Shown one piece after another: positions 12,708 to 26,260 of a stretch of DNA of 64,000 bases. The position numbers were made by a program, and so were the translations under genes. The notes below the pieces were generated by a model. The model had not been told where the DNA came from. It searched no databases and saw only the letters and a program-made list of their open reading frames with translations. The stretch is taken from positions 1 to 64,000 of the forward strand of contig JAFOFB010000001.1 in NCBI GenBank assembly GCA_017387505.1. The letters run 5' to 3'. Positions within the stretch are counted from its first letter, which is position 1. Each line of letters starts with the position of its first letter. This DNA comes from Methanocorpusculum sp. GTDB taxonomy: Archaea > Halobacteriota > Methanomicrobia > Methanomicrobiales > Methanocorpusculaceae.

Positions 12708-13026
12708 AGCCGCATCCCTCGATACAACAGCATCCGCAGTGTTTGGGTTCAATGATTCCGTCAGGGACTGACAAAATCTGCTTTATCTCATCGTTTAACG
12801 GATATCGTCCTGTAATCATCGGGAAATTATTGACCAGAGTAATTGGCAGAATCATCTCTCCTTTCTGCTCCACAAGGTGAAGAACTGACGAAGCGCAACA
12901 CTCTGAAATTTTCATCCGTGAAACATCAAAACCCGCATCCTTCAGTTTCAAAAGAACTGAAGATACACGTATCTCATCAGGGGAACTTATCGGATTTTTG
13001 TGGTCAACAATTAACAGGCTCTTCAT
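12700..13026 (-). CDS. ArsD-like thioredoxin-fold protein with Cys-rich tail
   Basis: 108-aa protein. Seen: a second half (LVEQKGEMILPITLVNNFPMITGRYPLNDEIKQIL) that follows the ArsD/thioredoxin-fold pattern of 'LP-x-LV...GRYP...EI', a CC pair in SECCASS, and a cysteine tail CGCCCIEGCGC. It lacks the N-terminal CC-TGVCGP of true arsenic chaperone ArsD, so metalloid binding is only a possibility. It overlaps the start of the DUF5714 gene by 8 nt, so the two cysteine-rich proteins are made together. Confidence 0.55.
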   Translation of the reverse strand: MKSLLIVDHKNPISSPDEIRVSSVLLKLKDAGFDVSRMKISECCASSVLHLVEQKGEMILPITLVNNFPMITGRYPLNDEIKQILSVPDGIIEPKHCGCCCIEGCGCE

Positions 13027-22652: not shown

Positions 22653-22763
22653 GTAACAAAATGTAACAGCCAGTTGGACATACAGTTACAAATTGTAACA
22701 GCACAAATATCATATTGTTACAAATTGTAACAACACCCGCCCCATACTGTTACAATCTGTTAC
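22653..22763. repeat. Four 15-bp palindromic operators at 32-bp period
   Basis: GTTACAAATTGTAAC occurs perfectly at 22685-22699 and 22717-22731, with variants GTAACAAAATGTAAC at 22653-22667 and GTTACAATCTGTTAC at 22749-22763. Each start is exactly 32 bp after the previous one, three helical turns, so all sites lie on one face of the DNA. The 17-bp spacers are unrelated to each other. The last site abuts the TATA box of the following gene, so occupancy should block transcription. Confidence 0.85.
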
Positions 22764-22771
22764 TTATAAAT
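22763..22771 (+). promoter_or_regulatory. Box A promoter of the RHH-like gene
   Basis: CTTATAAAT beginning at the last base of the fourth operator copy, about 25-33 nt upstream of the ATG at 22796. No ribosome site precedes the ATG, which suggests a leaderless or nearly leaderless mRNA. Confidence 0.55.
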
Positions 22772-22795
22772 ACAATCACCTCCTATCTATTTTTC

Positions 22796-22996
22796 ATGGC
22801 TTCAAAAGTTGTCCGTGTAAGTGAAGAAGCTCTATCTGTTGCATCAAAATATTCTACTGACCTGAGCACAGCAATTCTTCTCATGCAGGCAAAACTCGAA
22901 GAAAGAGAAAGGCAGGCTTTCGACATGAAAGCCTTGGAAAAATTAGTCAGGAACACAGTAAACGACTGCCTCTCTGACCTGAACAGGGGATTCTGA
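22796..22996 (+). CDS. Small RHH-like protein, candidate autoregulator
   Basis: 66 aa beginning MASKVVRVSEEALSVASKYS. The start VVRVSEEAL followed by two predicted helices (to about residue 40) resembles a ribbon-helix-helix regulator or antitoxin, then a charged C-terminal helix. The match is by pattern only; I do not recognise the family. The ATG at 22796 follows the TATA box correctly, whereas the longer frame from 22715 runs through the operators. The stop overlaps the next start (TGATG). The four operators just upstream make an autorepressor role likely. Confidence 0.6.
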   Translation: MASKVVRVSEEALSVASKYSTDLSTAILLMQAKLEERERQAFDMKALEKLVRNTVNDCLSDLNRGF

Positions 22997-23973
22997 TGCT
23001 TTACGGATGGATAGAAAAATACGGAAGAATACTTTCACCCGCAAAAGCTGAAGAGCTTACAGCAGAAGAAGTACAGTTCTGCGGAGGAGAGTTTATCTTA
23101 GAGACTGATACAATTACAGCACGCGACTGTTATGGAATCATGCCCTCGGCTTACCCCCCAGGTATTGTATCATCCAAAGACGGAATAAAAAATATCAGAC
23201 CTGATGTCCCGAACCTCGGACTCGAAGAAGCCATTGTAGAAGCAGTACGTTTACGCTGTACAGATAATGCAGTAGTTACTCTTTCCGGAGGAGTTGACTC
23301 AACACTTATTGCAGCTCTCTCAAACCTTCCGTCAATCGCTGTGGGTGCTGAAGGCTCACATGACGCTGAGGCTGCAGAAAAAGCAGCAGACGCACTTGGA
23401 GCTGACCTTACCATACACACAATCACCTTCGACGAAGTAGAAGCAGCACTTCCTGAAGTACTAAGCTTTTTGCCAATCAAAAATCCGATGGATATCGAGC
23501 TTGCTGTTACAGGATACTTCATCTGCCGCCTTGCCAAAAAATGCGGAGCTGAAAGAATCCTAACAGGACAGGCGGCTGACGAACTCTTTGCCGGATATGC
23601 AAGATATGGAAGAACAAACACCTTAAGAGCAGATCTTGATTCGGACTTCAAAGACCTTGCACGTCAGAGAGCACGCGACTCAGCACCTGCAAGTCACTTT
23701 GGCGTGTGGTACTCGCTTCCATACATGGATGAGCGTGTAGTGCGCTGTGCTAAATCGCTTTCAGCAGACGAACTTGTATCAGGAGAGCTTCGAAAAGTAG
23801 CTCTTCGAAAAGTTGCTGAAAAGTACATCCCGGAAGAGTTTGCATGGAAACCGAAAAAGGCAATGCAGTATGGAAGCGGAGTTTCCAAAATGCTTTCACG
23901 CCTTGCAAAAAAGGAAGGATGCAGAAATACTGCAGAACTTATCGAGAAGATTATCTCTTATCAGGAGGAATAA
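22996..23973 (+). CDS. Asparagine synthase-like PP-loop ATPase
   Basis: 325-aa protein with the C-terminal half of asparagine synthetase only. Seen: ATP-pyrophosphatase loop VVTLSGGVDSTLIAAL near residue 95, substrate region ERILTGQAADELFAGYARYG, and SLPYMDERVV with GELRKVALRKVA near the end. The N-terminal part (about 75 residues) is not a glutamine amidotransferase (no catalytic Cys2), so it would use ammonia or activate a different carboxylate. Coupled to the RHH-like gene upstream and followed by a membrane peptide gene after 6 nt. Confidence 0.8.
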   Translation: MLYGWIEKYGRILSPAKAEELTAEEVQFCGGEFILETDTITARDCYGIMPSAYPPGIVSSKDGIKNIRPDVPNLGLEEAIVEAVRLRCTDNAVVTLSGGVDSTLIAALSNLPSIAVGAEGSHDAEAAEKAADALGADLTIHTITFDEVEAALPEVLSFLPIKNPMDIELAVTGYFICRLAKKCGAERILTGQAADELFAGYARYGRTNTLRADLDSDFKDLARQRARDSAPASHFGVWYSLPYMDERVVRCAKSLSADELVSGELRKVALRKVAEKYIPEEFAWKPKKAMQYGSGVSKMLSRLAKKEGCRNTAELIEKIISYQEE

Positions 23974-23979
23974 AATAAC

Positions 23980-24213
23980 ATGGATACTCTAACTCTTTGT
24001 ATTCTGCTTGTTGCAGTCTGATTCGCGGTTGTTGTAATTACCGGGGCTCTTGAAATACTGCTGAAAAAGAAAAAGGAAGCAAAGACTGTTCAGGTAAATA
24101 CTGAACCTGCAGAACCCAAGCCTGAGTTTACCGTAGGGCGTATTTATCAGATGGAAGATGGATCATTTGCAAAATCTGCAGGAAACGGAAAGTTCCTGAA
24201 GGTTAGAAAATAA
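23980..24213 (+). pseudogene. Small membrane protein gene with in-frame TGA
   Basis: A 77-codon frame begins at ATG 23980 with AGGAGG upstream and reads MDTLTLCILLVAV, then TGA at 24019-24021, then FAVVVITGALEILLKKKKEAK and a soluble tail ending GKFLKVRK. The stop falls in the middle of the only membrane segment, and the frame stays open and protein-like on both sides. A single base change (TGG or GGA to TGA) would explain it. Third gene of the RHH/PP-loop operon. No good restart codon exists soon after the stop. Confidence 0.55.
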
Positions 24214-24278: not shown

Positions 24279-24950
24279 ATGCTTGGAATTATCGGAGGAA
24301 CAGCCCTGCTTCAGGCTGAACTTCCGCCTCTTGAACGGAAAATAATTGCAACTCCGTTTGGAAGTGCTGAAGTCTACCTCAGAAAAATTGCTGTAATCAA
24401 ACGGCATCAGTTCAATACACCGCCTGCACAGATAAACCACAGAGCCAACATTGCAGCTCTCAAAATCGCAGGCGTTGACCGCATGATTTCCATTGGTTCA
24501 ACCGGAAGCATGAAAGAAGAACTGCCTCCTGGAAGTCTCGTTGTCGCATCAGGATACTTTTCACCATGGAACATCCAAACATTCCATGAGCATGACATCT
24601 TCCATGTCCCGCCTTCAGTAGACGAAGAACTCTCTGCAGGACTTATGGAACTCGCACCAGATGCAAAACGCGGAGTCTACTTCCAGGCACTCGGCCCTCG
24701 TTTTGAGACCGCGTCAGAAATCGCACACTTCGCAGAACACACGGATGTTGTCGGAATGACCGCTGCCTCGGAACTCACTTTAGCAAATGAGCTTGGCATT
24801 CGATGTGCCGCTCTTTGTACAGTGGATAACTATGCAAACGGAATCGGCGGCGAAGGAGCACCAGACTACGAAGAGATTATCAAAATCGCAAGACAGAACG
24901 GAGACAAAGTAACATCACTCATCAAAGGAATCGTGGAGAAATTCGCATGA
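24279..24950 (+). CDS. S-methyl-5'-thioinosine / MTA phosphorylase
   Basis: Phosphorolytic enzyme of the PNP/MTAP family acting on 5'-modified nucleosides. Seen: MLGIIGGTAL at the N-terminus with the phosphate-binding GG-T, a short RHQFNTPPAQINHRANI segment, the family block GVYFQALGPRFETASEI, and GMTAASELTLANELG with the purine-site residues. 223 aa, shorter than typical MTAP (about 260). Because it overlaps a deaminase gene by 4 nt, it most likely acts on the deaminated (inosine) nucleosides, as in Methanocaldococcus MJ0060. Confidence 0.83.
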   Translation: MLGIIGGTALLQAELPPLERKIIATPFGSAEVYLRKIAVIKRHQFNTPPAQINHRANIAALKIAGVDRMISIGSTGSMKEELPPGSLVVASGYFSPWNIQTFHEHDIFHVPPSVDEELSAGLMELAPDAKRGVYFQALGPRFETASEIAHFAEHTDVVGMTAASELTLANELGIRCAALCTVDNYANGIGGEGAPDYEEIIKIARQNGDKVTSLIKGIVEKFA

Positions 24951-26260
24951 CAGAAGAAATCGATATCTACGGACAGCAGGTCCCAATCCTCATTAGAAAC
25001 GCGCGTGTCAATGGAAAAATACAGGAAATCTATCTTGACGGAACGGGAAAGATTGGAGCGGTGGATGAGAAAACCACTGACCACGAAGCAGAACTTGTAA
25101 TCGATGCAAACAGAGCAACAGCACTTCCTTCGATGTGCAACATGCATACCCATGCAGCTATGGAACTGCTTCGCGGATATGCTGACGACATGCAGCTTTT
25201 CCCGTGGCTCTCAACTAAAATCTGGCCGACAGAGGCACATTTAACCGAGTCTGACATTTACGCAGGGGTTAAACTTGCATGTCTTGAGATGATTAGAACC
25301 GGAACTACTGCCTTCAACGACATGTACTTCATGATGGAGGCAGCGGCAGATGCTGTTGAGGAGTCTGGAATTCGTGCATGTCTTTCCTACTGTATGATTG
25401 ACGGAGGAGACGAGGAAAAGCTCGAGTCAGAGAAGCGTGCTATGCAGGCAACTGTTGCAAACCTCAAAGCAAGAAACAATGAAAGAATTCTTCCGGGTGT
25501 CTCTCCGCACGCAGTCTATACTGTTTCCGAGGAAGGTCTTCGCTGGTGTGCAGAGTATGCAAAAGCAGAAAATGTTCCGCTCCATATCCACGTGTCAGAA
25601 ACCGAGCAGGAAGTAATCGATTGTGTTGCGGGTCACGGCATGAGACCACCTGCATGGCTTGACAAATGCGGTGTTCTTTCTCCGTCATGTATTGCAGCAC
25701 ACTCATGCTGGCTTGATGCTGATGATATTGCTCTCTATGCAAAGCGCGGTGTCACTGCAGTTCATAATCCTGTCTCCAACATGAAGCTTGCAGGAAACAG
25801 AGCACTCCCATACTCTGAGATGAAGGCAGCAGGTGTAAATGTGGCTCTTGGAACTGACGGAGCATCATCTAACAATGATTTGGATATGTTTTCCGAGATG
25901 AAGACCGCAGCCATTCTCCAGAAGTTCTTCTGGAACGATCCGACAGCACTTCCGGCATCTGAGGCTTTACAGGTTGCATCAAGAAACGGATTCAAGGCTC
26001 TTGGAATCAATGCAGGTGTAATAGCTCCGGGATACCTTGCAGATATTATCCTCGTTGGAAGAAACCCGATGAATGTTCCATGCTTCAACGCTGATTCCAA
26101 CGCAGTCTATGCAACAAATGGTCTTGCTGTTGAGACCACTATCTGTAACGGAGCAATCCTCATGTACGAAGGTGTGATTCCAGGTGCAGAAGAGATTATG
26201 GAAGAGGCAGAAAAAGCGGCATTCGCACTTGCGGCAAGAGCTGAGGCCGCAAATAATTAA
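24947..26260 (+). CDS. dadD: 5'-deoxyadenosine / MTA / SAH deaminase
   Basis: Zinc amidohydrolase deaminating 5'-deoxyadenosine, methylthioadenosine and S-adenosylhomocysteine. Seen: 437 aa, metal ligands in NMHTHAAMELLRG, HIHVSETEQEV, CIAAHSCWL and the catalytic Asp in ALGTDGASSNNDLDM, which is the MtaD/DadD pattern. It clears products of radical SAM and methyltransferase reactions and feeds the phosphorylase upstream, then MtnA at 9.1-10.2 kb. Ends in an 11-T terminator shared with the convergent dacZ gene. Confidence 0.9.
   Translation: MTEEIDIYGQQVPILIRNARVNGKIQEIYLDGTGKIGAVDEKTTDHEAELVIDANRATALPSMCNMHTHAAMELLRGYADDMQLFPWLSTKIWPTEAHLTESDIYAGVKLACLEMIRTGTTAFNDMYFMMEAAADAVEESGIRACLSYCMIDGGDEEKLESEKRAMQATVANLKARNNERILPGVSPHAVYTVSEEGLRWCAEYAKAENVPLHIHVSETEQEVIDCVAGHGMRPPAWLDKCGVLSPSCIAAHSCWLDADDIALYAKRGVTAVHNPVSNMKLAGNRALPYSEMKAAGVNVALGTDGASSNNDLDMFSEMKTAAILQKFFWNDPTALPASEALQVASRNGFKALGINAGVIAPGYLADIILVGRNPMNVPCFNADSNAVYATNGLAVETTICNGAILMYEGVIPGAEEIMEEAEKAAFALAARAEAANN

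Follow-up and report, generated by a model that had tools for sequence, protein, structure and literature searches.

Archaeal ribbon-helix-helix (RHH, MetJ/Arc-type) regulators bind to their own promoters and oligomerise towards the BRE and the TATA box (PMC5569661). Among them, the viral repressors SvtR, F55 and E73 are small proteins whose binding motifs, repeated or inverted, cover BRE/TATA or the start site. SvtR and F55 control their own promoters, towards which they have been suggested to spread from more distant sites; E73, a protein of 73 aa, carries a third, C-terminal helix and is described as "RH3" (PMC5569661). The Omega protein (ParB) of pSM19035 binds WATCACW heptads with one RHH dimer per 7-bp box and a low affinity for a single box; its arrays of contiguous heptads (7-bp step) lie over promoters and are autoregulatory, and it functions in partition with ParA (PMC9499535). 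In the Sulfolobales, the archaeal RHH protein SegB has a partner, SegA, and palindromic binding sites upstream of the operon that encodes it; dozens of its 13-bp TCTAGASTCTAGA-type sites occur across the chromosome (PMC12284271).

We analyzed a stretch of 64,000 nucleotides of Methanocorpusculum DNA (the window) in which an array of operators precedes the gene of a 66-aa protein. The cassette of regulator and array is real, conserved and apparently undescribed and represents a new family of an already known type of switch, and we consider it probable (about 0.72) that it is a cooperative autorepressor that occludes the BRE and the TATA box. The sequence-only reading of the window knew of no named system with this layout, and in the literature that we searched we found no matching description of it, nor any of the regulator family or the operator motif. 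To our knowledge, few regulators have been described in Methanocorpusculum and Methanoculleus. Sequence alone defines here a methanogen regulator family without a Pfam or NCBIfam match and a candidate operator code in which pairs of TGTWACA boxes recur at three-turn intervals over BRE/TATA, in a compact, single-copy cassette that is amenable to direct in vitro work.

Operator array and promoter

The locus in the window has the following features.

22653..22667, + strand: operator 4, the most distal, GTAACAAAATGTAAC; a fourth copy, where relatives usually have three
22685..22699, + strand: operator 3, GTTACAAATTGTAAC; a box pair of the TGTWACA-n3-TGTWACA type
22717..22731, + strand: operator 2, GTTACAAATTGTAAC
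22749..22763, + strand: operator 1, TATA-proximal, over the BRE position, GTTACAATCTGTTAC
22764..22772, + strand: archaeal TATA box, TTATAAATA, directly after operator 1
22796..22996, + strand: gene of the 66-aa RHH-like putative autoregulator, the first gene behind the array
22996..23973, + strand: gene of a 325-aa PP-loop enzyme with an asparagine-synthase domain, without the catalytic half of the glutaminase domain
23980..24213, + strand: optional membrane peptide ORF, with an in-frame TGA at 24019-24021

The four operators start at 22653, 22685, 22717 and 22749, 32 bp apart, as the sequence-only reading had claimed. It was also right about the two identical copies (GTTACAAATTGTAAC) and the two variants (GTAACAAAATGTAAC and GTTACAATCTGTTAC), about the dissimilar 17-bp spacers and about the last operator touching the TATA box, GTTACAATCTGTTAC being followed by TTATAAATA without a gap. 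Transcription would be expected to start at about 22792-22796, which would make the regulator mRNA leaderless or nearly so.

The window contains 9 matches to the operator motif where 1.63 are expected (both strands, up to 3 mismatches), a number reached by 0 of 100 shuffled windows. All four exact GTWACANNNTGTWAC sites of the window's own genome (83.5% complete) lie inside the array and none elsewhere, and across this genome and 24 congeners the exact site is almost confined to the array rather than placed at random genome-wide. The reversed paired-operator pattern, used as a control, had no matches in 150 genomes. A wider regulon in Methanocorpusculum was considered and rejected, the extra exact sites being few and mostly non-recurrent; the exceptions are two related places near restriction genes (genomes G002 and G018) and two sites inside a shared BRO-like ORF. 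Copies of GTTACAGAATGTAAC stand near restriction-system genes of G002 and G018, at L033 1973 and 2036 and at L034 1980, two of them 63 bp, or two periods, apart. In two Methanocorpusculum genomes, a virus-like region has a single GTTACANNNTGTAAC site next to a packaging-ATPase-like gene (L032 2072, L036 2043), which may be a chance occurrence.

What is the repeating unit of the array? The operators had been read as palindromes, but each consists of two TGTWACA boxes and not of one strict 15-bp palindrome. The true unit is best read as two TGTWACA boxes, each quasi-palindromic, that stand one helical turn from each other and recur as a pair every three turns. Start-to-start, the boxes follow each other at 10 bp, and mostly at 11 bp in family f5, where both spacings occur inside one promoter. 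The central W of the boxes is free (61 T/A, 26 A/A, 17 T/T and 13 A/T in 117 operators), as is expected if each box is read separately; the flanks show a strong preference for T before the right box (105/117) and for A after the left box (107/117). A 15-bp palindrome for one helix-turn-helix dimer is disfavoured by the largely free orientation of W and by the occurrence of both the 10-bp and the 11-bp box spacing.

Over 91 centre-to-centre intervals from hosts and viruses, the period has a mean of 31.4 bp (SD 0.63, range 30-33), which corresponds to 2.99 turns at 10.5 bp per turn. The 32-bp period originally described is exact in the window but becomes this narrow range across relatives, and it stays at about 31 bp when, in f5, the two boxes lie 4 bp apart instead of 3. 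Two 11-bp microsatellites (G037, G101) that came up in the first search for gap-4 arrays were excluded. All 44 promoters compared (44/44) have an AT-rich, TATA-like element at a distance of 0-2 bp behind one of their operators. Every operator lies upstream of this element in f5 and in f1, the family of Methanocorpusculum and its sister genus g14 (at -47, -79 and -110, and at -143 in the window); promoters of f2, f4 and the viruses have an additional operator downstream of it that abuts the ATG (about -15). This layout implies that binding would be cooperative and on one face of the DNA.

Conservation of the regulator, and the variable genes behind it

The 15 Methanocorpusculum loci with an intact regulator gene share the order operators, TATA, regulator and PP-loop enzyme, with three operators each, four in the window, and array spacers of unrelated sequence. 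The regulator profile detected one copy in 72 of 150 Methanomicrobiales genomes, and with a broader profile, 39 genomes out of 394 surveyed across the phylum had the regulator, every one of them a member of the Methanomicrobiales. Inheritance of the regulator seems to be mainly vertical, since the members of each family group with one another in a tree of 28 regulators. Upstream of nearly every regulator gene there are two or three operators with a period of 30-33 bp; the phased array noticed before the RHH-like gene in the window is kept in relatives. The array is single in nearly every genome. The regulator is encoded in 57 of the 58 genomes with a strict array and 77 of the 150 genomes have neither (Fisher p about 5e-26, with genomes counted as independent despite their relatedness). 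The sole genome with an array and no regulator (G006) is 71% complete, and 15 genomes have a regulator without the strict two-operator pattern, several of them with a weaker or single-site version. In families f3 and f6, neither array nor regulator was found in the genomes surveyed (150 of the order).

Loci without an intact regulator lack the array as well. At L008 the array is absent and an unrelated gene stands upstream of the enzyme; at L014 the array is absent and the regulator is a C-terminal remnant. At L016, in the reduced genome G012 (0.8 Mb, 61% complete), the regulator is a frame-broken pseudogene that is clearly homologous (alignment score of 201 versus a shuffled maximum of 36), the operators are eroded (last operator) and the enzyme ORF is open. 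No other gene is constant beside the array, and we found no different regulator gene that co-occurs with the motif. On this comparison, the conserved unit is the regulator gene with its array, and the passenger enzyme is not part of it. The trio of regulator, enzyme and membrane peptide that had been put forward as a unit dissolves, the latter two varying by lineage.

Two genera have additional sites. Genus g21 has a second two-operator array (L103 about 1991-2037 in G069, L100 1994-2040 in G127, and G111:C7:3620), which in G069 and G127 is flanked by the gene of a small membrane protein and an ORF of 215-230 aa and is a possible extra target. In genus g10, extra operators are found downstream of an aminotransferase gene, where the contigs end (L101 1916-2004, G105; L102, G133).

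In the window, the start codon of the enzyme gene overlaps the stop codon of the regulator gene (TGATG), which points to probable co-transcription and translational coupling. The enzyme has the loop SGGVDS, an SGG-DS motif invariant in 17 sequences, and only about 70 residues precede its synthetase domain, by inspection a glutaminase remnant; an N-terminal glutaminase domain with the catalytic Cys is not present. Its description as an asparagine-synthase-like enzyme that lacks the glutaminase half is borne out by a PF00733 match (E 8e-37) and a TIGR01536 score below the cut-off (112 versus 267 bits). The enzyme occurs order-wide (36/41 genomes) and outside f1 often stands before gatC, without regulator or array. 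Within f1 this AsnB-type PP-loop enzyme follows the regulator, and in one g14 genome gatC and gatA come next. In the G024 variant (L038 957-1972), the regulator has a 20-aa insertion and the enzyme, of 251 aa, is devoid even of the glutaminase remnant.

Other lineages have other genes behind the regulator. In f2 it is followed by a protein of ~420 aa that has an N-terminal domain of its own and a C-terminal metallophosphoesterase domain (L080-L084, L091). In the g18 genomes of this family (L085, L115) the array stands behind the regulator and in front of the metallophosphoesterase gene, a position that points to the latter as a direct target. In f4 and f5 the regulator is monocistronic and the next gene is on the opposite strand. 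Only some Methanocorpusculum have the membrane peptide, and the window does not have the intact copy that had been assumed: codon 14 of the ORF (ATG at 23980) is the in-frame TGA, where the nearest relatives have Cys. This codon may be a nonsense mutation, an assembly error or, what is unlikely, a case of recoding. Downstream of the operon, at 24279-26260 of the window, an MTAP-like phosphorylase gene overlaps the start of a deaminase-type amidohydrolase gene.

Is the regulator an RHH protein, as had been proposed? The residue pattern and the order of secondary structure favor this assignment, but no significant profile or fold match accompanies them. The AlphaFold model (pLDDT 83) has an extended segment at residues 1-9, with no strand assigned in the monomer, followed by helices at 10-17 and 23-39 and an extra helix at 44-65. 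Across 25 diverse homologues the conserved positions are V5, R7, Y19, S24 and M30, of which V5 and R7 of the N-terminal segment (SKVVRV) are invariant. In the model, the order of segments (extended, helix, helix, helix) and the conserved residues agree with a three-helix RHH protein. Profile searches against Pfam, NCBIfam, PHROG and the PDB gave no significant match to known RHH families, the PDB search returning only designed helical proteins and other chance matches, and a small profile-profile comparison (hhalign, hand-made RHH profiles) with five known RHH proteins failed. Foldseek gave four nonsignificant matches with the first model, including AtaR (antitoxin, E 4.6), AtaTR and VapB12, and no RHH match with a better one. 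Because these direct profile and Foldseek tests are weak, we name the regulator only RHH-like, its fold being a prediction.

Viral copies of the cassette

Among 2.9 million IMG/VR contigs, a search for the paired operators yielded 21 stretches. Three viral contigs carry true regulator homologues (profile E about 1e-22 to 1e-23) with three-operator arrays, namely, L142 (4059-4334), L132 (4422-4696) and L147 (8542-8816), and in all three the last operator abuts the ATG. The neighbors of the viral cassettes, identified with PHROGs, encode tail sheath, tape measure, baseplate hub and other tail proteins. The viral regulators form a separate clade in the tree (support 96/92), and among known phages we found no relatives of them or of the L147 tail sheath; for the viral regulator, the search covered 50,697 named phage records. 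A contig listed as viral could also be a provirus. Another viral contig, L143, has a three-site array (12709-12786, 32/31 bp) without a detectable regulator. In a group of A+T-rich phages (L128, L133, L137, L140, L144, L146, L148), direct GTAACAAATTGTAAC pairs occur 32 bp apart with no regulator homologue nearby; this group is probably unrelated to the cassette.

The sharing of the cassette between hosts and viruses is its most interesting part and new beyond the original observation. The cassette could be a device for host-virus cross-regulation, although we regard this as rather unlikely. The chromosomal regulator of Methanomicrobiales would then recognize the identical operators in the tail modules of their tailed viruses and could repress viral late genes, as in a CI-like immunity; alternatively, the host copy would be a target of the viral regulator. 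If it were true, the host cassette would be a domesticated viral switch or a defence element, and the copies in viral tail modules make host-virus cross-regulation in methanogens a concrete question.

Proposed mechanism, competing readings and known systems

We hypothesize that the 66-aa protein is an RHH-type DNA binder with an extra C-terminal helix, one dimer of which would occupy each quasi-palindromic TGTWACA box. Two dimers would fill one operator, its boxes being one turn apart, and further dimer pairs would be added every three turns on the same face of the DNA. The filled TATA-proximal operator would cover the BRE and block the loading of TBP and TFB, and in two families (f2 and f4) and the viruses the further operator would cover the start site. 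The outcome would be repression of the regulator and of whatever gene stands behind it, here the PP-loop enzyme, and the simplest guess for the relief of repression is dilution or titration of a small, concentration-sensing repressor.

Promoter occlusion, as reviewed for archaeal viral RHH proteins (PMC5569661), fits because the array is phased on one face, an operator lies over the BRE, in some lineages another lies over the start site, and the regulator comes first in its own operon. In support of autorepression, the regulator is the sole constant neighbor of the array in four families and three viral contigs, and the 57/58 linkage, the steady period, the free central W, the TATA position in 44 promoters, the joint decay in G012, the invariant V5 and R7 and the AlphaFold model point the same way. 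The g18 array, which is not before the regulator (L085, L115), speaks against it, as do the 15 genomes outside the strict pattern and the profile and fold searches without a significant match. Why would a cell keep a regulator whose only visible targets are its own operators? This monocistronic copy in f4 and f5 is the hardest fact for an autorepressor, since a simple operon repressor does not account for a copy that lacks any other recognisable target. It could be explained by weak sites that escaped the scans, by a partner protein or by an additional role against the arrays of viruses.

Some archaeal regulators activate transcription by recruiting TBP/TFB, and the same protein could do so from the same array if it bound upstream of BRE/TATA, where all operators of f1 and f5 lie relative to the TATA element. 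However, the TATA-proximal operator overlaps the BRE, and the start site would be obstructed by protein on the operator at the ATG (-15), which f2, f4 and the viruses have; activation appears unlikely to us. Binding of the array by the 66-aa protein is itself a prediction, as is the RHH fold, for which the searches gave no significant match, and another cellular regulator might bind the array with the 66-aa protein as a passenger. We consider this highly improbable, as the 66-aa gene is the only companion of the array in every lineage and in the viruses and is lost or decayed together with it.

The protein and the array could also form a centromere-like cassette, comparable to ParB/parS or to SegB and its sites, with promoter control as a secondary role. 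Precedents are the 7-bp repeats over promoters to which the RHH partition protein of pSM19035 binds (PMC9499535) and the SegB palindromes in front of segAB (PMC12284271), and a single array in nearly every genome and the existence of monocistronic copies would suit such a role. Yet no ParA/SegA-type ATPase gene stands beside the cassette in the listed neighborhoods of any family examined, the sites of the array are not scattered over the chromosome as those of SegB are, and the locus is not near the primary orc1, so that partition seems quite improbable. In 13 of 15 complete genomes the regulator locus lies 0.65-0.99 of half a chromosome from the primary orc1, with differing neighbors and in a comparison that has no control set; an origin-proximal centromere is unsupported by a single promoter-bound array at this distance. 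The small first gene, the stop-start overlap and the autoregulatory layout recall a toxin-antitoxin-like pair, in which an RHH antitoxin would regulate itself and the coupled downstream gene would be its partner, and the nonsignificant Foldseek matches of the first model include antitoxin-type structures (AtaR, AtaTR, VapB12). But this partner changes from an AsnS-like enzyme in f1 to a metallophosphoesterase in f2 and to none in f4 and f5, most of the order has the AsnS-like enzyme but no regulator with it, and in G012 the enzyme ORF is open and the regulator broken. We rejected a type II toxin-antitoxin system for want of a constant cognate toxin gene across families, and a pair of this kind is very unlikely.

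In comparison with known systems, the enzyme resembles AsnB and beta-lactam synthetase (PDB 1ct9, 1jgt) in its Asn-synthase domain and SGGVDS PP-loop and differs from them in having only a glutaminase remnant, the N-terminal catalytic part being missing. The regulator is similar to RHH antitoxins of the AtaR and VapB type in size, first-gene position, predicted autoregulation and a weak, nonsignificant fold resemblance, but has no constant toxin partner. Like SegB, it is an archaeal RHH-like protein with palindromic sites upstream of its own gene; unlike SegB, it has no SegA partner and no dispersed sites. With Omega it shares 7-bp boxes arrayed over a promoter and, as predicted here, one dimer per box and autoregulation, whereas its boxes come in pairs with a step of 10-11 bp, the pairs recur at about 31.4 bp and no ParA adjoins them. 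The cassette shares with SvtR, F55 and E73 a small protein with repeated sites over a promoter, and its predicted third helix is as in E73; the 66-aa regulator has no significant sequence or fold match to these proteins. It is set apart from them by the TGTWACA-pair motif, by the strict three-turn lattice and by a regulator that is chromosomal in Methanomicrobiales hosts as well as viral.
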